NCBI GenBank assembly: GCA_017622845.1
Contig: JAGAQJ010000047.1
Location: 1 to 64,000, forward strand
Direction: 5' to 3'
Origin: Lachnospiraceae bacterium
Lineage (GTDB): Bacteria > Bacillota > Clostridia > Lachnospirales > Lachnospiraceae
DNA length: 64,000 nucleotides
Shown: positions 1 through 12,937 of the stretch, one piece after another
Layout: the number at the start of each line of letters is the position of its first letter
How positions within the stretch are numbered: the stretch's first letter is position 1
Position numbers and translations under genes: made by a program
The notes under the pieces: model-generated
What the model was told of the DNA's origin: nothing
Database searches by the model: none
The model's input: the letters and a program-made list of their open reading frames with translations, nothing else

Positions 1-146
1 ATGGAGCTATCTGTTCCCATTCCTGATCAGTCAATTCATAACGCCTCAACATAATCAACACCCCTTTTTCTTTATTTTACCATAAAAAAGAGAGATGAAC
101 ATATTTTTTGTGCATTTTTTATTTTTCAAACACGCTCTAGATTATA

Positions 147-1048
147 TTAATCCTTCATCTTTATTGCAAGCACTTTTTCACTTTCGCCAGTTTCATTAGA
201 TAATAATTCACTTAGTTTTTCCGCAATTTCATCTGGTGTCATAATTGCAGCATTCATTGCCATTTTACCAACCAACGAAGGACTAAACTGTTGTACTTCC
301 TGTTTTGTAATATTATGCCATATTGGAAGAATTAATTTTCCACCATTTGACTCTCTTTGAAACAGCCCTTCTAATTCATAGTTTGTCCAATATTTACTTA
401 TATAGCTACGCGATAATATTACAACACCAAATTTAGACTTTTTTAACCCCTTATCTATTTCTGCTCGTATACTATCCCCCATCTAATTGAAACGGCATCA
501 TACCAAACTTTTAGATTAAATTTTTGTTGCAAAATTCTCACAAATTCATCTGCAAAACTTTCTTTATCTTCAGTAGCATGTGAAACAAAAACATCATACT
601 CCTCTTCAGGTCCCGAACCAATTAAAATTCTTTCGTTTTTCACAACCTCTCCTGACATTTGGATTTGATCTGTCAATTCTTTAATTTGTTTTTCGTATGC
701 TGCATATAAATTTTTTTGCTGTTTTTCTACCTTTTTAGCTTGTACCAGTTCCTCTTTTTGTAACTTTCCGGCAGCATCAACTCGACGTTTTCTTTTATCC
801 GCCAGCTTTTGATTAACAGTTGCTTTATCCGAAAGAATCTTTGAAAGATTCTTTTGACAGCTCTCAATCTGTCTCGTCTTGGACTGCAACATACTTTGTG
901 AAGTATTTTTTGTGATACTTCGTTGTATATTATCAATTTTTCTCGTCTTCTCGGCTTCTTTTTTAACCAATTCGACCATTTTCTTTTCTAAATCAGCAAT
1001 ATCCTTATCAATTTGATTTACTACACGTTGTGCCTGTTCAACACTCAT
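147..1048 (-). pseudogene. Coiled-coil TIR-domain protein, frameshifted
   Basis: The gene is split over two frames. The upstream part (from 1048) has a Lys/Glu/Gln-rich coiled coil over about residues 5-140, then the start of a TIR domain (YDVFVSHATEDKE, then KVWYDAVSIRWG). The rest of the TIR fold is in the second frame, from about 482 down: GDSIRAEIDKG, FGVVILSRSY and YELEGL, whose Glu sits where NAD-cleaving TIR enzymes have their catalytic Glu. A run of five C on the plus strand (476-480) marks the break; six would restore WGDSIR and a protein of about 300 residues. The start is ATG 1048, preceded by GGGAG. It is the last gene of the restriction-modification island. Bacterial TIR proteins are often NAD-depleting defence effectors, but that role is inferred here. 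The break could be decay, phase variation or an assembly error. Confidence 0.75.
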
Positions 1049-1119
1049 TGTCAAACTCCCTTCCATCTTCATTCTATATTCGAAGCACTATACAATACAT
1101 CCACTACAATCACTCCTAT

Positions 1120-1210
1120 GTAGATATGGGGATTACTTGCTATACTCTTATTCTTCCGCTCACTATCGGACATAAACTACACTGATTTCACAGGTCGCAC
1201 CCATATCTAC
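1120..1210. repeat. 11-bp perfect inverted repeat between HEPN and TIR genes
   Basis: GTAGATATGGG at 1120-1130 is matched exactly in reverse complement at 1200-1210, with about 69 bases between. It lies in the 210-bp gap between the HEPN-like and TIR genes and could form a long-range RNA stem. A 34-codon open frame runs out of it and its TGA overlaps an ATG (1072) upstream of the TIR start. I cannot assign a function. Confidence 0.4.
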
Positions 1211-1283
1211 TTATTATCAAATCACCCGTATCATAATTTCCTGTCACTATAACATTATGTTTATTTGCAAAACGCTTCACAAT

Positions 1284-2400
1284 CTAGTTGTTCATAAAAT
1301 CAATTTCAGAAAAAGTATCTAAATCTTTATTTATTTTCATCAAATCATCATCTAATTCCTGAAAGATACTTTTTACTAATTTACTGAGGATAACATTACT
1401 TTTCTCCAATGTTTCTGCATCGCTTATTTTTTCTTGTCCATATTTAAAGTGTGCAATCTTACATCTTGTAGCATATATATAATCTGACACTGTTTTTTCT
1501 TTCTGTTCAGATTTTATTTCATTCTTATTGACATAATTACACACATAATCATAATATTCCTCCAGCACTCCACTTAAAGCATATTGACATATAATTTGAT
1601 TTATACAACCATTTTCTGGAAAATGAATTTTTTCAGAATCAATCATCAAAACCATTTTCTTCGTTTCTCCTTCCATATCATATTTTTTCGAAAGATCAAG
1701 TGCTTTACAAATAATAAATAGGTACTCAATACATCTATATAGCTGCAAAAAAATCATCGAGGCATCTCTAGTTTGTGCAATATTCCCTAAAATTGAAATA
1801 ATACACTTACTTGAATCCATTTCCAGTATTTGAAGTATATTTGATGTCAATTCCATGTTCTGACCATAATCACGATTATCATAAAAAAACATCATATATA
1901 ATAAACGATCCAAATCCTCCTTATAATACATTTCAAAATCCTGATTATCAAATTCAAACAATGTATAGTTTTGAATCATCTCAAAAACAACATCACATTC
2001 ATATTCCATATCTTCTGTAAAGCCAAAAATTCTGTCATATACCATGTACCCTGTTGTCTCATTACTAATTGTAAGCATTCGCTCATTAAATAGCAATATA
2101 CCAATACCATACAATACATCCTGGTTATTAACATAACTTGATTGATCTCGAATAAATGATTGCGGTATTTTTTTTACACATATATATGTATGTATGTAAA
2201 TTATATTTAATCAACGCTATTCTCTCATCTAAGAGAACATTACTGCATATATATTTTGCTTTTTCAACCACGTCATATGCACATCGCGATAAATGAATCC
2301 TCCGTTCTACATCTGGGATTTTATTTTGCATATCTTCTGGCACAAAATCTCGCAAAATACTAAACATCTTCCTCTGTTGTTCTTTTATATTTCTTGACAT
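1284..2400 (-). pseudogene. HEPN-like protein, frameshifted
   Basis: Two minus-strand open frames join into one protein of about 371 residues. The N-terminal frame starts at ATG 2400 (ribosome site GGAGAG; the ATG shares one base with the stop of the gene before) and runs to MCKK. The C-terminal frame stays open upstream of its apparent TTG start (2114), reading KKIPQSFIRDQSSYV, so it has no start of its own. The break falls in a run of eight T on the plus strand (2168-2175); seven would restore the frame. Near the C terminus ATRCKIAHFKYG holds an RX4H motif as in HEPN ribonucleases (ApeA-like). HEPN proteins are frequent RNA-cutting effectors in phage defence. That family link rests on one motif and the mostly helical character, so it is tentative. 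Confidence 0.6.
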
Positions 2401-3584
2401 TATTCTCTCCAAAAATCTCCTAATGACAAAATCTCAGCTATATCCACATATTTTAACATACTCATAAATGCATCTTTAAACATAATACGCATTTCATCTC
2501 CTATTCTAGTTTTCGGCAAACCTGCGCATTTGGCATTAAGAATTTCCAAACTCAAATAATCCTCATTTATCGCTTTATTATTCTCTAATGCTTTTAGAAT
2601 TGAAAACATCTGTTTCTTATAATCATCACATTTTTCAACAATTTTCTCTTTGCTCCTATCAACAGATATTTTCCCCAAAATATATTCCGCACTGGCCACA
2701 ACAAACCCAACGCAAGCTGTTGAACTGGCAAAAATATCTTTTCCTTCAGTAAATTGCCCCTGTTCTTCACATTTCTTCCCATATTCAGAAAAAGCCAAAT
2801 CTAATTTACACATCATTCCTAATATACAAATAAATATGCTAAACGAGCCTTCTTTTTCTATTGATTCCATTACATCAAAACGCTGATATTCTTCTGCCAA
2901 TTCATCAGAAACATTAATCTTCACATTTCTAATGTTAAAACCCAAATACAGTTCTATGATTGCTGATTTATGATATTTGCCAGCCTGTGTTCTTCTTTTA
3001 CCATCGTCAATAGCATAAATGTCTATTTTATCCTTAAGTTCTGGATAAATTTTATAGAGTTCATTCTCTATATTTTTTGATAAATTCCCATATATTACCT
3101 CAATCTGTCGCCGTGTATTCCATGGTGTTTGTCCCGTATTTAAAACTAACATTCTGTATAATAATTTTTCACTATTATCTGCAACCCAAAATTCTACTCG
3201 TATTTTTCTTTTTTCATTTCCAGAAAAATTTTTAAAATAGATATTGCTTCTTTGCATACCATCAATTATAGACACCGTACATCCACTAAAGATTTCCAAA
3301 CTATTGTACTCTTTGCCTTCTTGCAATTTTTCTATATGCGTTTTCTCAGTCTGTATTCCCAAAACAACTTGTGGAAAAATCGTTCCTCTGCAAAAATCGT
3401 CCTGCATTCTTTTTCTTATTCGTGCAGCAGCAGCAGACTTTGTAATCACACCTCTTTGTCCCTCAAAATTTCCATTTGCATTAAAAGAATCAAATGCCAA
3501 ATCTTTATATTCTTCTAATAACATGTCTGTTAAAACAGATGTGCACTCACTTCTCGTATCTTTATCAATTGCTATCACTCTCAT
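2400..3584 (-). CDS. DGQHR/DndB-like protein (tentative)
   Basis: A soluble protein of 394 residues. Two segments suggest the DGQHR family, which includes DndB and resembles ParB-type folds: SIIDGMQRSNIY near residue 108, and LNTGQTPWNTRRQIEV near residue 148, like the LNT-Q-P stretch of those proteins. Members are found in DNA-modification and phage-defence loci and may act as DNA-sensing or regulatory parts. The start ATG 3584 has a good GGAGG site. The gap to the restriction enzyme gene upstream is 100 bp, and the stop overlaps the start of the HEPN-like gene by one base (TAATG), so the two are probably translated together. I do not recognise a catalytic site. The assignment needs a profile search. 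Confidence 0.5.
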   Translation of the reverse strand: MRVIAIDKDTRSECTSVLTDMLLEEYKDLAFDSFNANGNFEGQRGVITKSAAAARIRKRMQDDFCRGTIFPQVVLGIQTEKTHIEKLQEGKEYNSLEIFSGCTVSIIDGMQRSNIYFKNFSGNEKRKIRVEFWVADNSEKLLYRMLVLNTGQTPWNTRRQIEVIYGNLSKNIENELYKIYPELKDKIDIYAIDDGKRRTQAGKYHKSAIIELYLGFNIRNVKINVSDELAEEYQRFDVMESIEKEGSFSIFICILGMMCKLDLAFSEYGKKCEEQGQFTEGKDIFASSTACVGFVVASAEYILGKISVDRSKEKIVEKCDDYKKQMFSILKALENNKAINEDYLSLEILNAKCAGLPKTRIGDEMRIMFKDAFMSMLKYVDIAEILSLGDFWRE

Positions 3585-3684
3585 TTTATACCTCCATCTT
3601 TCCAGATCTTACAAACATTATTCAATTGGCATATCCATTAGATTAATATATTATACTTCATTTTAGTTTTAGTATTCATCTATA

Positions 3685-4770
3685 CTACTTAAACCTTACC
3701 TGCAAATTAAACTTAATAAACATTTCTCCATCTTCTTCGTACAGGCTCATATACTCATGTCTGCTTGTAGATGCCCTTTCCAAGATAGTATTATCCAAAA
3801 GATACTGCTCAAAGAAATTTCTGTTATAAATGTGATATGCCAATATCTCGCCATCAGCTTTTACAATAATGTAACCTCCATTAGCTTCATCAAGTCCATC
3901 CCATTTCTTTGCAGGCTTCATTCCCAACGCACAGGAACAGAGGAATTTCTTAAATTTATATTCATACATCATGGCATCCCCATATCCAAGCGGATCACGT
4001 TCTCCAGCAAGTTCAACCAACTTACCACATTCTTTAATATCTTCTTCATAGTAATACAAAAGCATATTACCAATAATTTGCGGCATACTACTGTCTACCA
4101 TAATCAAATTACGCCTAAATCCCGGATGTTCCATGCCGGCATAACTGATAGAACCACCAAACTCTTTTATGGCTTTCACTCTGTCCTTAATTTTTGTTGG
4201 CGTATCTATCGCATTGATTTCCTGTGCCTGTTGCGTTGTAATACCGGTAACTTTATAAATGAAGTTCGTGGTTTTCCCAGCATTAAGTAATGTTGGAGCA
4301 TTTCCCACTTCAGATTTAATGGAAAATCCCACATTACGAATATAATTCGTATGTATATCCTCAATTTGCATGGAAATGTCTGTTGTATCAGAAGAAGGCG
4401 CTTTTATCTTTGTTACCTTAATACCGTTAGCAAATTCCGCTACTTCTTCCAATTCGAAGCTGCCACTGTTGTTTGCTATTTCCTGTAATAATCTGTTTGC
4501 ATTGTCATCCAACTCTTTTCTTGATACGGTCATAACCATCTTTGACTGCACTTCAATATGAACATTTTCATCAGTGATTACATAATCAATGGTATGTCCT
4601 TTTTGTTCTTCACGCATAATTTTCAAAATCGGATAGAAGACATCGTCAATCTTTTCTACCTTCTCATTCGCAGCATAAACACGACCCTGACTTAACAATT
4701 TCATAAATGCATATAATTCAGACCATTCACCTTTGTTTCCTGACATTTTGCTGTTGTTCTTATTTGCCAT
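3685..4770 (-). CDS. HpaII-family type II restriction endonuclease
   Basis: This encodes a type II restriction enzyme of the HpaII family (361 residues), whose known members cut CCGG. Typical family segments are visible: NKGEWSELYAFMKLL at the N terminus, VFYPILKIMR, VGFSIKSEVGNAPTLLNAG in the middle and KTTNFIYKVTG after it. DYVITDENVHIEVQSK may be the acidic part of the active site. The start chosen is ATG 4770 with GGAAGGTG upstream; a TTG two codons earlier is possible. The gene starts inside the end of the methylase gene, so the two are translationally coupled. CCGG as the target is inferred from the family, not shown by the sequence. Confidence 0.88.
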   Translation of the reverse strand: MANKNNSKMSGNKGEWSELYAFMKLLSQGRVYAANEKVEKIDDVFYPILKIMREEQKGHTIDYVITDENVHIEVQSKMVMTVSRKELDDNANRLLQEIANNSGSFELEEVAEFANGIKVTKIKAPSSDTTDISMQIEDIHTNYIRNVGFSIKSEVGNAPTLLNAGKTTNFIYKVTGITTQQAQEINAIDTPTKIKDRVKAIKEFGGSISYAGMEHPGFRRNLIMVDSSMPQIIGNMLLYYYEEDIKECGKLVELAGERDPLGYGDAMMYEYKFKKFLCSCALGMKPAKKWDGLDEANGGYIIVKADGEILAYHIYNRNFFEQYLLDNTILERASTSRHEYMSLYEEDGEMFIKFNLQVRFK

Positions 4771-5761
4771 TCTCAAGCACCTTCCTTATCTCTTTTGCTA
4801 TTGCTTCAATTACATTGACCGTTACACTGTTGCCAAACTGCTTATACAGATGAGTATCTGCCAGTTCTAATTTAAAATTGTCCGGAAATCCTTGCAATCT
4901 CGCCCATTCCCTGGGGGTTAGTTTTCTTATTCCTTCTCTGTTTACCTCTCCTTTTATATGAGTAACGGGGGTAAAATCTTTTAATCTTCTATCGACTATC
5001 AGATTTCTTTCCCTTCCCATGCCTCCGCAGACGATAGCTCCAGCCTGCCCATTAATATCACGAATTTCATAACCAAATCCATTTCCTTTCGCTTTATGTC
5101 TTTCCTTATGGCGTTTTAGCGTTTCCATATAAGTAGTGGAAAGATAGTATTTTACACTTACAGTATTTTCTTCCATTATATCTTTTATCTTTGTATCGGA
5201 ATTTTCCCCCTCCGGAAATTTAAAACCTGTACTGTCTATGTTGTTGCGAAATGCAACAATATAAATACGCTCTCTATTCTGAGGAACACCAAAGTCTTTG
5301 CTGTTTAAAACTTTATCATAAACCGTATATCCAATCTGTTCAAAAGCCCGCTTGATTACTTTAAAAGTTCTTCCTTTATCATGAATAGTCAGACCTTTCA
5401 CATTTTCACAGAAAATTACTTTGGGCTGATGATATTCGCAAATACGAACTACATCTTGAAACAGGGTTCCTCTGCACATTCCTTTATAATCATCATCAAA
5501 TCCCATTCTTTTACCCGCCATTGAAAATGCCTGACATGGAAATCCCGCTAAGCAAATATCAAAGTTCGGTATTTCTTTTTCGTCAATTTGTGTTATATCT
5601 CCTGCTATTTCAAAATCATCAGCGTAATTAGCACGATATGTCTTTTGTGCATATTCATCCCACTCACTCACGAATACAGTTGAAATATCCTCTCCAAAGG
5701 CATTTTCGAACCCTTTTCGTATTCCACCTATTCCTGCAAATAAATCTATTGATGTGTACAT
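4760..5761 (-). CDS. DNA (cytosine-5) methyltransferase, HpaII-type
   Basis: A C5-cytosine DNA methylase of 333 residues with the ordered motifs of the family: I (DLFAGIGGIRKGFENAF), IV with the catalytic Cys (GFPCQAFSMAG), VI (ENVKGL), VIII (QNRERIYIVAF), IX (RKLTPREWARLQGFPD) and X (YKQFGNSVTVNVI). The target-recognition region is about residues 205-265. It protects host DNA from the adjacent HpaII-family endonuclease, most likely by methylating CCGG. The start is ATG 5761 with AAGGAGA upstream, 11 bp after the Vsr gene, and its end overlaps the restriction gene. Confidence 0.93.
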   Translation of the reverse strand: MYTSIDLFAGIGGIRKGFENAFGEDISTVFVSEWDEYAQKTYRANYADDFEIAGDITQIDEKEIPNFDICLAGFPCQAFSMAGKRMGFDDDYKGMCRGTLFQDVVRICEYHQPKVIFCENVKGLTIHDKGRTFKVIKRAFEQIGYTVYDKVLNSKDFGVPQNRERIYIVAFRNNIDSTGFKFPEGENSDTKIKDIMEENTVSVKYYLSTTYMETLKRHKERHKAKGNGFGYEIRDINGQAGAIVCGGMGRERNLIVDRRLKDFTPVTHIKGEVNREGIRKLTPREWARLQGFPDNFKLELADTHLYKQFGNSVTVNVIEAIAKEIRKVLENGK

Positions 5762-5772
5762 ATCCGTCTCCT

Positions 5773-6219
5773 TTAATCAAGTATATCTTCTTCACTCATT
5801 GTATTTTCAAATATGGTTTCTTCAACGACCTTCACGCATTGATCCACATCTTTTTTGATATCCTTGCCCCAAAATCTTATAACAGTCCATCCCATAAACA
5901 TTAATTGCTTATTGATTTCTTCATCTCTTTCCCTGTTTCTTGCTATCTTTTTTATCCAAAAATCAGCATTCTTTCCACGTTCAAGCTGTTTCTTTAAATC
6001 ATCCCAGTCTTTTCCATGGAAAAATTCACTGTCACAAAATATGGCTATCTTATATTTTGTGAGTACAATGTCAGGTTTCCCAGGCAATGAACTATAATTT
6101 TTACGATATCGATACCCTTTCTGCCATAGTGCTTTTCGCAACTTCATCTCGATACCTGTGTCTTTATTCTTTATGCGGCTCATATTTTTATGGCGTTGCT
6201 CTTTTGTCAACCTGTCCAT
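5773..6219 (-). CDS. vsr: Very short patch repair endonuclease
   Basis: A Vsr endonuclease of 148 residues. It nicks beside T:G mismatches left when 5-methylcytosine deaminates, and so limits the mutagenic cost of the neighbouring C5 methylase. Seen in the sequence are the family start (MDRLTKEQRHKNMSRIK), the metal-site region (GKPDIVLTKYKIAIFCDSEF, followed by FHGKDW) and the C-terminal GWTVIRFWGKDI. The start is ATG 6219 after TTGGAGTG, giving the usual Vsr N terminus; an ATG three codons upstream has poorer spacing. It lies between the XRE regulator and the methylase in one operon. Confidence 0.92.
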   Translation of the reverse strand: MDRLTKEQRHKNMSRIKNKDTGIEMKLRKALWQKGYRYRKNYSSLPGKPDIVLTKYKIAIFCDSEFFHGKDWDDLKKQLERGKNADFWIKKIARNRERDEEINKQLMFMGWTVIRFWGKDIKKDVDQCVKVVEETIFENTMSEEDILD

Positions 6220-6234
6220 AACAAACACTCCAAA

Positions 6235-6444
6235 CTATTCCGTATCTTCAACCACTTCCATAATATCAGACACATTACATTCCAAAGCTTCACATATTTT
6301 CAACAAAATATCCGTATTAACATTTTCATTTCTCCCTAACTTTGCAATGGAAGCCGAACTAATATTAGCCTTCTCTGCTAAATCCTTTTTCATCATTTCC
6401 TTATCAATCAAAAGTTTCCATAGCTTTTTATAACTGATTTTCAT
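6235..6444 (-). CDS. XRE-family regulator, possible RM controller
   Basis: A 69-residue helix-turn-helix protein. MKISYKKLWKLLIDKEMMKK begins a Cro/C1 fold, with the turn and recognition helix at about residues 21-45 (LAEKANISSASIAKLGRNE). The start is ATG 6444, preceded by GGAGG at good spacing. The longer open frame from 6519 has no such site and would add 25 residues not typical of the family. As first gene of the restriction-modification operon it may act as a controller (C) protein that times endonuclease expression, or as a simple repressor. No operator could be assigned with confidence. Confidence 0.82.
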   Translation of the reverse strand: MKISYKKLWKLLIDKEMMKKDLAEKANISSASIAKLGRNENVNTDILLKICEALECNVSDIMEVVEDTE

Positions 6445-6529
6445 ATGTGCCTCCGTTTCATCGAACATACTTTCTCTTAGCATATCATGTTCCTCAATTT
6501 TATGCAATATCTTTTTCACAATTAGATAG

Positions 6530-6608
6530 AGTAAACTTACTGTCAGTTGGAGAGTCGCAGAGAGTTCCTGCCATGAATCTGTCCAGACTTGATTTCTTTA
6601 AGTTTACT
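6530..6608. repeat. 10-bp inverted repeat upstream of the RM operon
   Basis: AGTAAACTTA (6530-6539) is matched exactly in reverse complement at 6599-6608. The pair lies between the regulator start and the ISLre2 remnant. It may be an operator pair for the XRE protein, or the end of an old insertion that landed beside the island. Nothing else is recognisable in this gap. Confidence 0.4.
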
Positions 6609-6626
6609 TCTTTCCTGTGCCTGCTG

Positions 6627-7145
6627 TCAAATATTACTTAGCCTTTCCCTGCTTGCCAATTTCTTTCTGATTTCAACACTCGGAATGGCTGCCTGCATCC
6701 TCTCCAGATACACCCTGTCGCTGTCATGCTGTCCGTGGAGCAGTTTCTTCAGATATTCTCTGGCAAATTTCGGCTCCGCATCCTCTGTTCCTGTTGCTTC
6801 AAGCTGCTTGTGACCCCGGCGGTAGTGTACCAGTTCTATGACTTTTTCCTCTCCATAATCCCTTACATAGCACCTCATCCAGCACATGGCATCTGCCCCT
6901 GTCTCACTCCAGCACATGGGTCTGGAACTCATTCTGTCCGAATACACATGGCTTACATGCCCCTCCGCACTGCACCCGTACACATTTTTATCCTGCATAC
7001 GAAGCACTGCACTGTCCCAGTTATTCAGCACATACTCTTCACATTCATTCACTGCCTTTTCATTCGGGGCACATTTCCGTACTTCCTTCAGGGTCTTTAC
7101 AAATTTTTCCTTTTCACCCTTATACAGTGCCTTCCACAGGCTTGC
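6627..7145 (-). pseudogene. ISLre2-family transposase, C-terminal remnant
   Basis: The open frame carries the C-terminal part of an ISLre2 (UPF0236) transposase: LWKALYKGEKEKFVKTLKEV, then VYGCSAEGHVSHVYSDRMSS, SETGADAMCWMRCYVRDYGE and LVHYRRGHK. The N-terminal two thirds are missing. The first dozen codons of the open frame (to 7190) lie antisense to the neighbouring ATPase fragment and are not part of the transposase. The remnant abuts a plus-strand ATPase fragment at about 7145-7150, so the element was truncated by a rearrangement. It should have no transposase activity. Confidence 0.85.
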
Positions 7146-7149
7146 CCTG

Positions 7150-7522
7150 GAAAAACGTAAGACACTGGTCATTATCATTGATGAAGCCAACTATATCAAC
7201 AATGCTGTACTGAATGACCTGAAAATCCTGTTCAACTTTAAAATGGATTCCAGGGACAGGGTCGTCATTCTCCTCGCAGGACTTCCATCCCTGAACAATT
7301 CCCTGCGTCTGGGTATTCATGAGCCCCTGCGCCAGCGCATCGTCATGAATTATAACCTTGAGGGCATGACAAAAGAAGAAGGGCGCAGCTACATACAGGC
7401 AAAACTGAAAGGGGCAGGCTGCACCCGGACTGTCTTTGAGGATGCCTCTGTTGAAGCTGTACTAAACGCAGCTGACGGAATGTCGCATATCATCAACAAG
7501 CTGTGTAATGCCAGCCTTCTGA
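7150..7522 (+). pseudogene. ExeA/TniB-like transposition ATPase, internal fragment
   Basis: An internal fragment of an AAA ATPase of the ExeA/TniB type that works with DDE transposases. It begins at Walker B (KTLVIIIDEANYINN) and continues through LILFNFKMDSRDR-like helices, VVILLAGLPSLNNSLRL, the arginine finger region (HEPLRQRIVMNYNL) and a C-terminal lid (DGMSHIINKLCNASLL). The Walker A part and true start are missing: they are replaced by the antisense ISLre2 remnant. After about 7522 the frame runs into an IS1634 transposase read in another frame. The fragment is non-functional. Confidence 0.75.
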
Positions 7523-8425
7523 TTGGTATTGCAGCGATGCCAGTCTGGCTTCACAAAGCAATCGCAACTTCAATCATATGGGAAAACGAGCATTTATTGT
7601 CACCCAATCTATCAAAAAACTTCGAAAAGAAGATAAGGAACTGGCTCAGAACGGAAAAGATTTCAGAAGACTATCTGACCATAGAAAAATTGATTTGAAT
7701 AACCTTGAAGGAGACGAAACAGATCAGCTCTACTATAAAGAAATTCCTTACACCAGTGGGAATCCAGATCAGCGTCCGATAATTACATACTCTCCTAAAT
7801 ATGCTGCTTATCAGAAATCTATCAGAGATGCTCAGGTTGAACGCGCCAAGACTATGATTCAAGATGGTTCCACAAAAAAGAACAGAAAGAAACCCAACGA
7901 TCTGGCACGTTTTATAGACAAACCGGCGGCAACAAAAAATGGTGAAGCAGCTGATATCCATTACTATCTGGATGAAGAAAAAATTTTAGAAGAATCCGAA
8001 TATGATGGTCTGTATGCAGTATGTACAGATCTTTTGGATGATGAGGTTGGAGAGATACTAAAAGTAAGCGAAGGAAGATGCAGATAGAGGAATGTTTCAG
8101 AATCATGAAAACGGATTTTTCTGCAAAGCCCGTGCATGTCCAAAGAGATGAACGTATCAAAACTCATTTTCTGATATGTTTTCTGGCACTCTTACACTAT
8201 CGTCTTTTAGAAAAACAGCTTGGTGAAAAATATACTTGTAGTGAAATACTTGAAAAACTAAGAGAAATTAACTTTGTTGATTTGCAACAGCAGGGTTTTA
8301 TTCCTACTTACACAAGAGATAAATTGACTGATGACTTACATGATGTTTGTGGTTTTAGAACTGATTACCAATTCATCAGTAAAAGTAAGATGAAAGAAAT
8401 TCAAAAGCTAAGTAACGGACGATAG
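7523..8425 (+). pseudogene. IS1634-family transposase, C-terminal part, frameshifted
   Basis: This is the C-terminal part of an IS4-superfamily (IS1634-type) transposase. It starts abruptly at about 7523 with YCSDASLASQSNRNFNHMG, which contains the second catalytic Asp region, and continues with KRAFIVTQSIKKL, ITYSPKYAAYQKSIRDAQ and DGLYAVCTDLLDDE. The last part is EECFRIMKTDFSAKPVHVQR, which holds the catalytic Glu. A single missing G near 8080 (TGCAG where TGGCAG would give RWQIEE) splits it into two frames, 7578-8087 and 8078-8425. It is both truncated and frameshifted. Confidence 0.85.
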
Positions 8426-8445
8426 ACATTACTAACTAAAGAGCG

Positions 8446-8510
8446 TGACAACGAAGAAAATCGCTGAAATACCCTAGTTATAAGCAGTACAGCGATTTTT
8501 TTCGTTGTCA
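8446..8510 (+). terminator. Long hairpin after IS1634 remnant
   Basis: Arms at 8446-8466 and 8490-8510 (21 bp each, nearly perfect) enclose a 23-base loop. The 3' arm contains T7. It lies 20 bp after the transposase stop and may be the element's terminator or part of its right end. Confidence 0.5.
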
Positions 8511-8584
8511 ACTGTCAAAGACAGGATTGTACAGAATCCTCTAACAAATTACAATAAATAATAAGGCAGTTGCCTTCCTTAGAA

Positions 8585-8815
8585 GTAGCAGTTCAGCCGT
8601 ATGGATTATTTTAATCAGGACGAAGGTCGGCAGTGTACTGATAACTGTTCAGCTTTATGATTTCAATGAACAGAAAACGGCAGATAGTATCCTGCAGGCT
8701 GCCTGGTGGAGAATGGTGATATTTCCTTATACGATGAATTAGGAAATTCCCATTCGGAATCCATGGCAGCCGGAGGGATACTATCTGCCGTTTTCGTCCG
8801 GTTGTCAATACATAA
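8585..8815. repeat. Dispersed hairpin element, copy A
   Basis: The non-coding stretch between the IS1634 remnant and the ABC operon holds a structured repeat. It begins with GTAGCAGTTCAGCC (8585-8598). A perfect 19-bp inverted repeat, AAAACGGCAGATAGTATCC (8674-8692) against 8776-8794, extends inward as an imperfect stem to a loop near 8730. About 60 bp (8636-8698) recurs in the opposite orientation at 31319-31382. No coding potential is seen. Confidence 0.65.
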
Positions 8816-8830
8816 AAGGCTGGCTGGTTT

Positions 8831-9529
8831 CTAATCAATCCCGTCCGACAAGCATCCATCAATTATCTTTACGATTCTTTTTGCCTTTTTTGCTACTTTT
8901 AAGTCGTGTGTAATCATAACAATGGTATTGCCCATTTCATTAAGCTCGTCAAAGAGTTTCAGCACTTCCTGACCGCTTGCGCTGTCAAGCGCCCCTGTCG
9001 GCTCGTCGGCAAGCAGAATTGCAGGATTGGAAGCAAGCGCACGCGCAATCGACACACGCTGCTTCTGACCGCCGGACAGTTCGCTTGGCTTGTGGTCAAG
9101 CCGATGGTCAATTCCTAACAGCTTGACGATTTCCCTGCACTGTTTTTTCGCCTCTCCATGGCTCATGCCTCTGATAATCAGCGGCATAATGATATTCTGC
9201 ATAACATTGTAAGTCGGAATCAACTGATAATTTTGGAAAATAAATCCGATTTCCTTGTTCCGCACCTCGGTCAATGCGCTTTCGGGCGTCTCATGAATCG
9301 CTCTTCCATTCAGATAATATTCTCCGGAGTCAAGCAGGTCCATGCACCCGATAATATTCATCAGTGTCGTTTTGCCGGAGCCGGAGGGACCAAGGATTGC
9401 TACATACTCACCCTTTTCCACACAGAAATTGACATTCTTTAGTACAGGAACCGTATCTTCACCCAGTTGATAGCCTTTATTAACATTTTTTATCTCTATG
9501 ATGCTTATGACAATACACCTCCCATTCAT
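8831..9529 (-). CDS. MacB/LolD-type ABC transporter ATP-binding protein
   Basis: The ATPase of a MacB-like ABC system, about 232 residues. It has Walker A (GPSGSGKTTLMN), Q-loop (IGFIFQNYQLIP), signature (ELSGGQKQRVSIARAL), Walker B (ILLADEPTGALD) and switch His (MITHDLKVA). It pairs with the FtsX-type permease encoded two genes upstream and should energise outward transport or extraction from the membrane. The start is uncertain: ATG 9529 gives MNGRC, but a strong GGGAGGTG lies just inside and would suit a rarer ATT or ATA start near 9514, before IEIKNVNKGY. An ATG at 9553 would overlap the gene upstream. It is last in the operon. Confidence 0.9.
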   Translation of the reverse strand: MNGRCIVISIIEIKNVNKGYQLGEDTVPVLKNVNFCVEKGEYVAILGPSGSGKTTLMNIIGCMDLLDSGEYYLNGRAIHETPESALTEVRNKEIGFIFQNYQLIPTYNVMQNIIMPLIIRGMSHGEAKKQCREIVKLLGIDHRLDHKPSELSGGQKQRVSIARALASNPAILLADEPTGALDSASGQEVLKLFDELNEMGNTIVMITHDLKVAKKAKRIVKIIDGCLSDGID

Positions 9530-9537
9530 TATGACTG

Positions 9538-9936
9538 TTAATCCACAATCCATATTTTTATCACTTCTTCCACATCCTGCGTCTGCTGCATCAGCAGCTT
9601 TATCACATCTCCGTTTGCAAGGCGTGAAAAAGTTGTGCTGGTTCCAAGCTTTGTGATGACCTCTGTGCCTACTGGTATTTGAAGCTGTCCTTCCTCCTGC
9701 GTTTCCTGATATCCGCCATTCTCCTGTTCCTCAACAATCACGTATGATATTTCATTTCCTATGGCTGCGATTATCTTTGCAAACACAAACGACTGTCCGT
9801 TTTCCAATACAATTGTCTTCTCTGCATCTGACTGCTGTTTGTCTGCACGCTGTTGAAAAATCCTTACAGACAATGCCGCTGTCACAGCAATTGTTATAAT
9901 CAAAATAATAATTACTATCTTATTCCGTTTGCTCAT
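9538..9936 (-). CDS. Small membrane-anchored accessory protein of the MacB-like operon
   Basis: A 132-residue protein of unknown family. It has one N-terminal membrane segment (KIVIIILIITIAVTAALSV), then an extracytoplasmic part that looks beta-rich (residues 40-132, ending KIWIVD). The start ATG 9936 has TAGGAGAC upstream. It sits between permease and ATPase with 26 bp and slight overlap on either side, so it is almost surely co-translated with the exporter. By position it may be an extracytoplasmic partner of the permease or fusion proteins. I could not assign a domain. Confidence 0.7.
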   Translation of the reverse strand: MSKRNKIVIIILIITIAVTAALSVRIFQQRADKQQSDAEKTIVLENGQSFVFAKIIAAIGNEISYVIVEEQENGGYQETQEEGQLQIPVGTEVITKLGTSTTFSRLANGDVIKLLMQQTQDVEEVIKIWIVD

Positions 9937-9962: not shown

Positions 9963-11306
9963 TTATTCATGGTTCAGCGCTACAACCGGAATCAGTGAAG
10001 ATGCCTTATATGCAGGGTAAAATCCAAAGACAGTTCCCGTCAGAACACCGAATGCAAGCGACAATCCGGCTCCCGTCACCGACAGCTCCACTCTCACGGA
10101 AAAGCTTTCGATAATCGGGGTAATGCCAAGTGCCGCTATCACACCAAGCACGGCTCCTATAAAGCTCATTACGCTCGCTTCAAACAGAAATTCCAGCAGA
10201 ATATCTTTTTGGGAGCAGCCGAGCGCTTTTAAAATACCAATCTCATTGGTGCGCTCCTTGACTGACACGAACAATACGTTCATAATACCGATGCCGCCTA
10301 CCACAAAGACAATCGCTGCCATTGCAATCAGCAATAATTGCAATGTGTCATTAGACTTTGATGCAGCCTCCATCTTGGTTCCTGCATCGGAAATCGTAAA
10401 TTCCGCATTCGGATAGCTGTCTGCAAGAACGATTTCTATGTTTGCAATAACGTCCTCTACCTCATTGACATCTGCCGCAATCACGGTTATCGTAGGACTG
10501 ATATTTTGTCCGGTGATATATTTAATACCGGTTTCATAAGGAATAAAAATCGCCGTATCAGGACTGATGCCTGATGAAACACTTCCCATTTCCTCAAGCA
10601 CACCGCTGACTGTATATGGCCGCGAGTCTATGTAAACAACATCGCCATATGCTGAATATGCGCTGTCAAACAGCTCTTTTGCCACACTGCTTCCAAGCAC
10701 ACAATACTTTTCCTTCTTCTCGTCATTGTCCTCTGTCAGAAATTCACCGATTGTCATAGTCATGTTGCTGATGGAAGCGTAATTGCTTTTTACACCTGCA
10801 ATCGTATATGAGGCTGCCTCCTCCAGAGAACCGCCTTCTGTCTCACAGGTCGTCGTATAGGAGATGGTGACGTCGGAAAGGTTCGGAACAAATACCTCTA
10901 AATCCTCCATGTCATCTTCCGACAGAATAATTTTCTCCTGATTCATGCGGTCGTCATTATTCCTGCCAAAACCGCCTCCGAAGCTGCCTCCTCCCATGTC
11001 AGGCATACCTCCGCCAAAGCCTCCTCCCCTTCCTCCGCCGGAGGGCGCTGCCCCCATGTCAGGCATACCTTCGCCAAAGCCTCCTCCTCCGAATTCCACA
11101 GCATTGCTTTCATAGGAAATATCAATTGCTCCTGCATTGAGGTTTTTAAACTGCTCCGCAACCTCCATCTGTCCGCCCGTACCGATTGCGAGCACCAGCA
11201 TGATAGTTGCAGAACCTACGATAATACCAACGGAGGTCAGGATTACCTTGAATTTATTCTGCGAAAGATTGATAAAAACAAGCCTTAATAACTCGGATAT
11301 TCTCAC
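9963..11306 (-). CDS. MacB/FtsX-family ABC permease
   Basis: A 447-residue permease. Its N-terminal segment (IILTSVGIIVG-like, residues 18-42) anchors a large extracytoplasmic MacB_PCD domain, followed by three C-terminal membrane helices (about 325-440) with the FtsX signature VKERTNEIGILKALGCS. Unusual for the family is a Gly/Met/Pro-rich loop at about residues 70-110 with repeated GMPDMG, the same motif as in the tail of the first fusion protein of this operon. The start is GTG 11306, whose GTGA overlaps the stop of the preceding gene. It forms the membrane part of the exporter with the ATPase at 8831-9529. Confidence 0.92.
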   Translation of the reverse strand: MRISELLRLVFINLSQNKFKVILTSVGIIVGSATIMLVLAIGTGGQMEVAEQFKNLNAGAIDISYESNAVEFGGGGFGEGMPDMGAAPSGGGRGGGFGGGMPDMGGGSFGGGFGRNNDDRMNQEKIILSEDDMEDLEVFVPNLSDVTISYTTTCETEGGSLEEAASYTIAGVKSNYASISNMTMTIGEFLTEDNDEKKEKYCVLGSSVAKELFDSAYSAYGDVVYIDSRPYTVSGVLEEMGSVSSGISPDTAIFIPYETGIKYITGQNISPTITVIAADVNEVEDVIANIEIVLADSYPNAEFTISDAGTKMEAASKSNDTLQLLLIAMAAIVFVVGGIGIMNVLFVSVKERTNEIGILKALGCSQKDILLEFLFEASVMSFIGAVLGVIAALGITPIIESFSVRVELSVTGAGLSLAFGVLTGTVFGFYPAYKASSLIPVVALNHE

Positions 11307-12937
11307 TGTCCACTCACCTTTCCTTCGATCAGAGCGACATCTCCATCCGAAAGTCCTTCCACGATTTCTACATTAACACCGTCCGAAAAGCCTGTGACAA
11401 CGTCTTTTTCCATGATATTGCCGTCCGCATCATACATCTTTACATAGGAACGGGTGCCGTCTCTCAAAATAGCCCTGTTTGACACATAGAACACTTCCTT
11501 CGTCTCTTTTGTGACAAAGGTAACATCTCCCGTCATGCCTTCATACAATCCCGATACATCTCCCTGAATGGTAATTGTAACAGTATAGTACAGCCCGCCT
11601 GTGCTGCTGTCATACTCTGCATCGGATACCTCGCTGATTACTCCGGTATAAAGCGCATCAGGGTATGCCGTATAGGAAATGTTCACGCTGCCCTCCTTGT
11701 CAATGGATTGGAAGTCCTCCTCGCTCAGTGCGACATCCATTGTCACTGCCTCCTGATCATACAGCACGATAAGCCCTGAATCCTTGCTTACGGAATCGCC
11801 GGAAGCAAGCTCTACCTGCGTGACAACGCCGCTGTACTCTGCAAGCACCGTATTATCAACGATATAAGCGTCAAACTCCGCAAGCTTTGCCTGTGCATCT
11901 TCGTAGCTGCTTTTTGCATTTTGAAGCTCCTTATCAAGGCTTTCTGTCTGTATCTGATACCATTTGGAGGCGCTGTCGGAATAATAGGTATCAATATCAT
12001 AGGTCTGTTTTGAAGCAAGCTTTCCTTTCTCAAGCTCCAAGTTTGCCTGATTGAGTTTCCGCATTGCCTCCTCGATTTCCAGCGTCAGGCTTTCGTTCTG
12101 CTCCGTAAGAGTTTCCACCTGCTCTGTAAGCTTCTCTACAAGCGCCTCGGCTGTTTCCCTTGTATTTTCATATACCGTATAATAATAGGGATTGTCATAA
12201 CGTCCTGCATAATTCTCCGAAACAGCGCCTTCCGCTTCTTTCAGATAAGCATTTGCCTCGTTCAGCTCATCCTGCACCCTGGTAAGCTCCAAGAGATTTT
12301 CGTTCAGCTCATCCTGTTTCTCATTCACTGCCTGTACCGCGTCATCAACTGCCTCCTGCAGGTCAGCAAGCTCATTGTCGTAAATAAACTGAGCATATTT
12401 TCCATTTGTAATATAGGTCTCATAGCCCTGCTGCGCCTGCAGCCTTGACTCTTTCTGTTCTGTCTGGATAGTCTCATATTCATTCTTGGTTTCGCTGACA
12501 TCTTCCTGCAGGGTGTTTCTGATTTTGTCGACGCTCTCAGCAGTCAATGTATAAAGCACATCGCCTGCCTCGATTTTCTGTCCGACAGTTACATACACCT
12601 CCTCTATCTCAAGTGACTGCGACTGTGAGGTAAACTGTGCTTCAAAGGAAAACATCTGCATACCGCCGCCCATTCCGCCAGCCGATGATGTGCCGGAGGT
12701 CTGTGTATCGCTGCTTACGAGGGCGCTGATATCTAAATCAAAGGTCTGCTCTACCGTACCGATACTGACGGAGGACTCGTCAGTGATGCCGACTGTCAAA
12801 GTGCCGTATTCAACTGCCGTTTCCCGATATACAGAGCTTTCCTCCTCTGTGCCGGAGAACAAAATGATTGCCGCGACTGCTGCTGCAACCACGAGGATTC
12901 CTGAGCCTGCTGCTGCGATTTTGATTTTATGGTTCAT
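11303..12937 (-). CDS. Membrane-fusion (HlyD/MacA-like) protein 3
   Basis: An adaptor protein of about 544 residues. An N-terminal anchor (IAAAGSGILVVAAAVAAIIL) is followed by a lipoyl half (EEVYVTVGQKIEAGDVLYTL), a long coiled coil at about residues 150-370, the second lipoyl half (VVTQVELASGDSVSKDSG) and beta-barrel regions. Such proteins extend MacB-type permeases beyond the membrane; in Gram-positives they are often part of peptide or antimicrobial export. The start is ATG 12937, overlapping the stop of fusion protein 2 by 11 bp; an upstream start at 12961 is less likely. It is the third of three tandem paralogues. Confidence 0.88.
   Translation of the reverse strand: MNHKIKIAAAGSGILVVAAAVAAIILFSGTEEESSVYRETAVEYGTLTVGITDESSVSIGTVEQTFDLDISALVSSDTQTSGTSSAGGMGGGMQMFSFEAQFTSQSQSLEIEEVYVTVGQKIEAGDVLYTLTAESVDKIRNTLQEDVSETKNEYETIQTEQKESRLQAQQGYETYITNGKYAQFIYDNELADLQEAVDDAVQAVNEKQDELNENLLELTRVQDELNEANAYLKEAEGAVSENYAGRYDNPYYYTVYENTRETAEALVEKLTEQVETLTEQNESLTLEIEEAMRKLNQANLELEKGKLASKQTYDIDTYYSDSASKWYQIQTESLDKELQNAKSSYEDAQAKLAEFDAYIVDNTVLAEYSGVVTQVELASGDSVSKDSGLIVLYDQEAVTMDVALSEEDFQSIDKEGSVNISYTAYPDALYTGVISEVSDAEYDSSTGGLYYTVTITIQGDVSGLYEGMTGDVTFVTKETKEVFYVSNRAILRDGTRSYVKMYDADGNIMEKDVVTGFSDGVNVEIVEGLSDGDVALIEGKVSGQ

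Follow-up and report, generated by a model that had tools for sequence, protein, structure and literature searches.

What is a second defence pair doing at the tail of a restriction-modification (R-M) operon? The question is raised by the first 64,000 nucleotides of contig JAGAQJ010000047.1 (assembly GCA_017622845.1, a Lachnospiraceae bacterium), a stretch that we call the window. At the very start of the contig, which begins at window base 1, seven genes lie on the minus strand in the reading order helix-turn-helix (HTH) regulator, Vsr, cytosine-C5 (C5) methylase, HpaII nuclease, dzbA, dzbB and a TIR gene (Table 1). The dzbA and dzbB genes are almost certainly those of the defence system Dazbog, which is said to go back to Millman et al. 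2022. We consider it somewhat probable that this pair, appended to a type II C5 R-M operon of the HpaII kind, forms a second line of defence behind it, with the TIR gene probably unrelated. A first-pass annotation of the same DNA had placed regulator, Vsr, methylase, nuclease, DGQHR-like, R-x4-H and coiled-coil TIR genes here. All of them are present; it had missed that the HEPN and TIR genes are each split over two frames.

The R-M part of the operon is complete, as that annotation had read it: regulator, Vsr, methylase and endonuclease are each recovered by a profile match. Family matches in the operon reach down to 1e-121, and the gene identities are not chance. As in known HpaII type II systems, a nuclease of this family adjoins a C5 methylase (PF09561, PF00145), here with a Vsr and an HTH gene in addition; the latter starts with GTG at 6519 and has in-frame ATGs at 6483, 6468 and 6444. 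We take CCGG, from the name of the family, to be the site methylated and cut here. The methylase is 51-68% identical to those of three other loci that carry Dazbog (L018, L019 and L020 in our numbering) and of the unlinked L132, and the five form one CCGG-type group. L132 is a related HpaII system in which Vsr lies downstream and no dzbA was seen in the 4 kb covered. The window operon differs from such systems in the second defence pair that it carries behind the nuclease. From HTH to nuclease the genes overlap or are 6 to 11 bases apart, 100 bp separate the nuclease from dzbA, and dzbA and the ATG of dzbB overlap by one base; a gap of 211 bp precedes the TIR gene.

The identification of the pair begins with DzbA. 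The window protein matches the PADLOC DzbA profile (PDLC03835) at 2.6e-50 over positions 2-369 of 393, near its full length, and is 73% identical to the DzbA of L012, a Eubacterium metagenome-assembled genome. The DGQHR/DndB-like assignment of the first-pass annotation agrees with hhalign, which places the DzbA family in the ParB/GmrSD_N/DndB fold group (GmrSD_N 92.7%, DndB 22.8%, two control families 0.1% and 0.6%). With Pfam at E 1, 37 of 48 DzbA relatives match GmrSD_N (DUF262, PF03235) and 9 of 48 match DndB; a DUF262-like domain is thus found at the level of the family. The alignment of 48 sequences has Q43, R44, D108, G109, Q111 and R112 among its invariant positions. A sequence search of solved structures with DzbA returned a single match, at E 0.21 and with an unrelated name.

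DzbA family members have the GmrSD_N core, with QR and DGxQR, of the type IV enzymes GmrSD and BrxU. Excerpts of PMC10952713 list Dazbog among DUF262 systems that lack the DUF1524 domain of those enzymes; its partner is instead an HEPN protein, which makes RNA rather than DNA the likely target. The window's own genome holds three further GmrSD_N (DUF262) matches (G000:C7, C33 and C68, one with an internal stop), so that further modification-sensing candidates exist there. In a sample of 391 genomes of the window's class, the own genome alone has a full-length DzbA match, with three weak fragments elsewhere. The loci L002-L004 have no dzbA by profile, and one query of Escherichia coli genomes gave no match at the DNA level. 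Three queries of phage records gave no DzbA match, although the PHROGs family phrog_27603 (function unknown) matches DzbA at 6.2e-84. A second such family, phrog_15646 (function unknown), matches the two pieces of the TIR gene at 4.2e-42 and 1.2e-31. The existence of these families implies that phages or prophages carry relatives of both proteins.

DzbB stands directly next to DzbA, as in Dazbog, in two frames rather than one. The second piece matches the PADLOC profile PDLC03836 at 1.1e-6 over its C-terminal two thirds and the first piece has no profile match; both align to the intact DzbB of L012, with 33% and 44% identity. About 90 codons are read in one frame before the reading shifts to another, at or near an A8 tract (2175-2168) that is the longest homopolymer in the gene; as assembled, the pair is thus probably inactive in the window genome. 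The HEPN R-x4-H motif claimed earlier is present as RCKIAH. In 41 DzbB sequences E223, R308 and H313 (L012 numbering) are invariant, and a relaxed R-x4-5-H in the last 45% of the protein is kept in 79 of 85 relatives. ApeA-type HEPN is matched weakly by 13 of the 41 (best E 0.0011), and a search of solved structures with DzbB likewise gave ApeA as its best match (E 0.25). The window pair therefore resembles Dazbog in its two adjacent genes, in the reach of both profiles and in its DUF262 relationship, and differs from it in being built onto a type II C5 R-M operon and in its broken dzbB frame.

The TIR gene is broken as well. Its pieces match the PADLOC candidate PDC-S66 (coiled coil plus TIR; PDLC05062) at 1.1e-46 and 2.9e-50 over positions 1-189 and 187-280, so that coil and TIR are both covered (1-280 of 282) in a gene that lacks a single intact reading frame and is probably separate from Dazbog. 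The break falls at the gene's only G5 tract (480-476), a place at which four relatives stay in one frame. The two breaks thus fall at the longest or the only homopolymer of their kind (A8 2168-2175; G5 476-480), and the R-M genes and dzbA are open; the tracts are possible slippage sites or assembly errors. The breaks may be mutations, mixed populations or assembly errors, and the two tracts could also be sites of programmed frame shifting or of phase variation. Intact relatives exist for both genes.

The first-pass annotation had joined the DGQHR-like, HEPN and TIR proteins into one new module. Two of the three are already known together as Dazbog, and the third does not seem to belong with them. 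Profiles built from the window's TIR pieces found no TIR relative in the 126 other Dazbog loci (L001-L130, flanks covered), and a broader profile, to which seven relatives contributed along with both window pieces, gave only two weak matches there, both in long frames (L100, 2.5e-6, 1083 amino acids, 6.5 kb from dzbA; L069, 0.0094, 1557 amino acids, 2.7 kb). Conversely, among 34 loci retrieved with HpaII and PDC-S66 queries, with flanks of ~1.5 kb, dzbA occurs only in the window's own, and neither dzbA nor HpaII adjoins the other PDC-S66 loci retrieved (flanks of at most ~1.5 kb). At E 0.001, PDC-S66 is matched in 82 of the 391 class genomes, many of these being weak matches to the TIR domain. 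The trio is consecutive on one strand in the window, and a Neobacillus locus of the window's DzbA clade (L072) has, at 2.5 kb upstream of dzbA, a PDC-S66-type coil (4.8e-8) fused to CHAT. Given the paucity of TIR matches at Dazbog loci and the 211 bp gap before the TIR gene, a three-gene module is not supported and seems to us very improbable. Homologues lying mostly apart, which the annotation had named as telling against its trio, are what we find for the TIR gene; the DzbA-DzbB pair holds together.

In L072 (6070-7514) the CHAT domain stands in place of TIR on the PDC-S66 coil, and a small gene precedes it with a motif (D-S-x-NF-x2-YK-x-G, by eye) resembling one with which the TIR proteins of L138 and L139 begin. 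From these sequences, PDC-S66 would seem to be modular, a family whose effectors can be exchanged. ThsB models also match the window's TIR protein; no ThsA is among the matches listed for nine window proteins, on a contig that starts at window base 1.

Table 1. Features of the operon at the start of the window, in reading order.
Feature	Position	Strand	Remarks
HTH regulator, probable controller of the R-M operon	6235..6519	-	PF13443 HTH_26, 8.2e-19
Vsr mismatch endonuclease	5773..6228	-	TIGR00632, 2.9e-40; PF03852, 1.3e-29
C5-cytosine DNA methyltransferase, HpaII/CCGG group	4760..5761	-	PF00145, 4.1e-98; TIGR00675, 2.3e-103
HpaII-family restriction endonuclease	3685..4776	-	PF09561, 5.4e-121, whole profile
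dzbA of Dazbog, GmrSD_N (DUF262)-like putative modification sensor	2400..3584	-	one open frame; PADLOC DzbA
DGMQR motif of DzbA, residues 108-112	3249..3263	-	D, G, Q and R invariant in 48 sequences
dzbB of Dazbog, broken	1284..2412	-	frame 1, 2412-2128; frame 2, 2114-1284
HEPN R-x4-H motif RCKIAH of DzbB	1449..1466	-	R and H invariant in 41 DzbB relatives
dzbB-TIR gap	1073..1283	-	single copy in genome; inverted repeat, fold not clearly above shuffles
Coiled-coil TIR protein PDC-S66, broken; probably separate from Dazbog	147..1072	-	frames 1072-455 and 482-147

Whether the neighbourhood of Dazbog and C5 R-M means anything depends on how often it recurs. Our set holds 127 loci with dzbA, including that of the window's own genome (L001); the other 126 fall into 95 clusters at 70% identity. 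The GTDB scan supplied the best 80 of 247 Dazbog relatives, and our rates apply to what was sampled in this way; a second alignment, run on viral contigs, gave 25 loci, all on contigs already in the set. With a profile seeded from the window's own methylase, which may miss distant ones, and with mechanical gene calling, a C5 methylase is found somewhere in the stretch at 20 of the 127 loci, own included, and within 2.5 kb of the pair at 10 of the 95 non-redundant loci, plus the window. One further C5 methylase, that of L105, which lies on the strand opposite dzbA and 123 bp away from it, dropped out when its cluster came to be represented by L106, where the methylase lies at 2.8 kb. Among genes of at least 200 amino acids, C5 methylases make up 11 of 292 within 2.5 kb as against 1 of 291 at 5-10 kb (Fisher 0.006); the amino-methylase motif is not enriched (8 of 292 as against 5 of 291 at 5-10 kb, 0.58).

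A comparison with whole genomes points the same way. The 49 Dazbog genomes used for it, which were chosen by eye, with the linked loci already known, so as to have at least 5 kb of flank, contain 138 C5 methylase (PF00145) pieces in 234 Mb, a density from which 0.22 linked loci would be expected (C5 methylase at 2.5 kb or less); 8 are seen. The genomes represent 40 clusters and the linked loci 7. Three equally wide loci without a C5 methylase (L031, L064 and L082) were omitted by oversight, and the full count of 8 in 52 leaves the reading unchanged. The excess over the genome-wide density is strong, and the link between Dazbog and C5 R-M is likely to be non-random.

The linked R-M systems are of several kinds. 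HpaII is linked in the window, L019 and L020, a BsaWI-like nuclease in the Ignavibacteria locus L018 (E 1e-4, below the cut-off), Eco29kI in Microvirga lenta (L043), MTaX1 in L070 and, from the annotation of the record, MvaI/BcnI on a Moritella plasmid (L010); L037 and L058 have GIY-YIG proteins near the methylase. HpaII, BsaWI, Eco29kI and MvaI/BcnI presumably all cut sites of the CC..GG type. Outside the CCGG-type group the linked C5 methylases show, where aligned, 21-39% identity to it. L020 (Flavobacteriales) and L043 share one order, Vsr, methylase, nuclease, dzbA, dzbB, all on the same strand; L018 has the same order with an HTH gene in front and one extra gene, and L019 has it with no Vsr detected. 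In L019, L020 and L043 dzbA directly follows the nuclease gene. A tree of 95 DzbA sequences leaves 22 of its 92 inner branches without resolution and has flags on long branches; placing the C5 label on it takes 7 changes, and well-supported branches require at least 5. The window DzbA groups with Bacillota lacking a linked C5 methylase, and not with L019 and L020.

Two other arrangements in the set deserve mention. In L045 (976-13579) a Dazbog pair has three genes for C5 methylases no more than 8 kb away. In L014 (8288-9961), L015 (8235-9962) and L017 (8266-9948) a Schlafen AlbA_2 protein, called by Pfam in L014 and alike by eye in the other two, is encoded 15 to 53 bp upstream of dzbA on the same strand.

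Several observations weigh against a special tie between Dazbog and C5 R-M, or against the sensor role of DzbA that a second line of defence would call for. At most representatives (85 of 95) a C5 methylase is missing from the nearest 2.5 kb, and the stretches covered for the window's closest DzbA relatives, L012-L017, yielded none either. HpaII, in turn, is mostly without Dazbog in the sample seen: among 398 genomes of the phylum, 4 have HpaII, and 3 of these (two with partial HpaII genes) are without dzbA in flanks of ~1.5 kb; of the plasmid records, 7 have HpaII and 10 have dzbA, without overlap. The 8 linked loci are partly related to one another and amount to about four DzbA lineages, namely L019 with L020; L037, L045, L047 and L058 (L037 weakly supported); L043; and L070. 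The R-M system of L081 is DpnII with an N6-adenine methylase, a fused D12 adenine methylase and DpnII nuclease (8163-9935) that lies 19 bp upstream of dzbA. On its own, the window DzbA matches neither GmrSD_N nor DndB at E 1 (Pfam). Finally, as a control, 40 TIR defence regions from the window's class, picked from 82 matches listed and unmatched in taxa, have a C5 methylase within 2.5 kb in 1 case and, if the limit is set at 6 kb, in a second; against 1 of 40, Fisher gives 0.038 for 8 of 49 but only 0.17 for 10 of 95. The C5 excess over other defence loci is thus suggestive only, and the clustering of defence genes in islands remains a serious rival.

The state of dzbB bears on the same question. 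An intact dzbB frame comes right after dzbA at 94 of the 126 loci, the others being 16 without a profile match, 10 on short contigs and 6 that are flagged; L077 and L084, where dzbA itself is split, are counted as intact. Of 14 C5-linked loci examined, 12 have a dzbB that is intact by profile; L010 gives no profile match and has an open frame with the motif. L019, which is linked to HpaII, has an in-frame stop at codon 38 of its dzbB (11170-11360), so that dzbB is broken in two of three HpaII-linked loci (window and L019), a further point against a working partnership. With the 16 loci lacking a profile match and the 10 on short contigs set aside, dzbB is short or split in 3 of 98 others (L022, L065 and L076; Fisher 0.006 for the comparison with 2 of 3, which was chosen post hoc and concerns draft assemblies). 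This excess may be a trace of self-attack, or nothing.

A simple account of the linkage is that R-M systems and Dazbog are both mobile and share islands, so that selection acted on shared transfer and not on shared function; we regard this as quite possible, at somewhat less than even chances. The window operon sits in an AT-rich island (GC 0.334 for 1-6640 as against 0.447 for 8400-64000) bordered by transposase remnants, and some of the linked loci are on plasmids or viral contigs. Integrase is the commonest Pfam family (4, with C5 methylase at 3) among 58 close same-strand neighbours, that is, 56 of 59 within a limit of 150 bp and two added by hand beyond it (the Eco29kI of L043 and an HsdR in L013). 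The many Dazbog loci without C5 R-M and the modest excess over TIR defence loci fit this account as well. It does not readily explain why the enrichment is specific to C5 rather than to amino-methylase motifs and falls off beyond 2.5 kb, nor why gene order and strand are kept across several phyla, with gaps of 2 to ~200 bases before dzbA.

The R-M system might also act as a guard, as in PrrC-PrrI: its proteins or the host methyl mark would restrain DzbAB, loss or inhibition of R-M would free the HEPN toxin, and phage methylases would disturb the balance. This model has precedent, since passages of PMC3710099 link at least 16 HEPN clades to R-M and place the HEPN family MAE_28990 in an operon with genes for a ParB nuclease and a DNA methylase, and it would suit the nuclease gene that directly precedes dzbA in three loci. 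The window shares with PrrC-PrrI and the other HEPN genes of R-M operons an HEPN protein as second line beside R-M, and differs from them in its type II C5 system and its separate sensor protein; DzbB is not detectably a member of MAE_28990 (1 of 41 members, E 0.044). Because most Dazbog loci lack a C5 R-M partner and no PF00145 match was found in 8 of the 49 Dazbog genomes (mostly drafts), DzbAB seemingly needs no C5 R-M antitoxin, and we consider a guard improbable. Dazbog itself and HEPN genes in R-M operons are already known; no description of Dazbog within C5 R-M operons was found in the open-access literature that we searched.

We therefore return to Dazbog as a second line behind C5 R-M, for which we propose the following sequence of events. 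The R-M system, as expected of its family, would methylate the CCGG sites of the host and cut unmethylated DNA. Phages can escape restriction by methylating their own DNA. A phage that evades restriction in this way would create the trigger, to which DzbA, by its relationship to GmrSD_N, may respond, either through such modification or through the phage methylase. DzbA would then activate DzbB, whose HEPN motif suggests an RNase that shuts the cell down. The earlier suggestion that modified DNA serves as a cue agrees with what excerpts of reviews say of Dazbog: methylation of viral DNA is reported to set it off, methylases can activate it through a mechanism called unclear (PMC12409349), and Dam is named as an activator (PMC12926258). 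A functional coupling between Dazbog and C5 R-M is, in our estimate, a little short of an even prospect.

Such a second line would have to be blind to the mark of the linked methylase, since a Dazbog pair that shares its operon with a cytosine methylase cannot respond to 5-methylcytosine indiscriminately. More tentatively, and with rather low confidence, we suggest a two-tier system in which unmodified phage DNA is cut and foreign cytosine methylation triggers DzbA and the DzbB RNase, each DzbA being tuned to ignore the mark of its own linked methylase. Such tuning would then be reflected in the repeated recruitment to C5 systems, of the CCGG type and others, and the broken dzbB in two of three HpaII-linked loci would be self-attack where tuning fails.

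The surroundings of the operon gave few further clues. UPF0236 (minus strand) and AAA_22 (plus strand) remnants at 6627-7698 adjoin the island upstream of the operon and are probably broken mobile elements; the contig end shows the start of a transposase frame, presumably IS5-like. A promoter scan found no excess (32 promoter-like sites as against 31.9 in shuffles), a terminator scan found none, and the sole Rfam match at E 1 in window 1-9000 is a microRNA model below the cut-off and outside the operon. An inverted repeat lies around GTAGATATGGG and CCCATATCTAC between dzbB and the TIR gene (1073-1283). A structured RNA in this gap was considered and rejected (fold z -1.05, no Rfam support, single copy).

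Dazbog at the end of an R-M operon recurs in distant bacteria, and the question that it poses is how Dazbog tells the methyl marks of its own cell from those of a virus. Where the mark of the linked methylase is tolerated, the linked loci are natural pairs of a sensor and a tolerated mark. Such pairs could reveal what triggers Dazbog, be it the sequence context of methylation, its amount or timing, or the phage enzyme itself.

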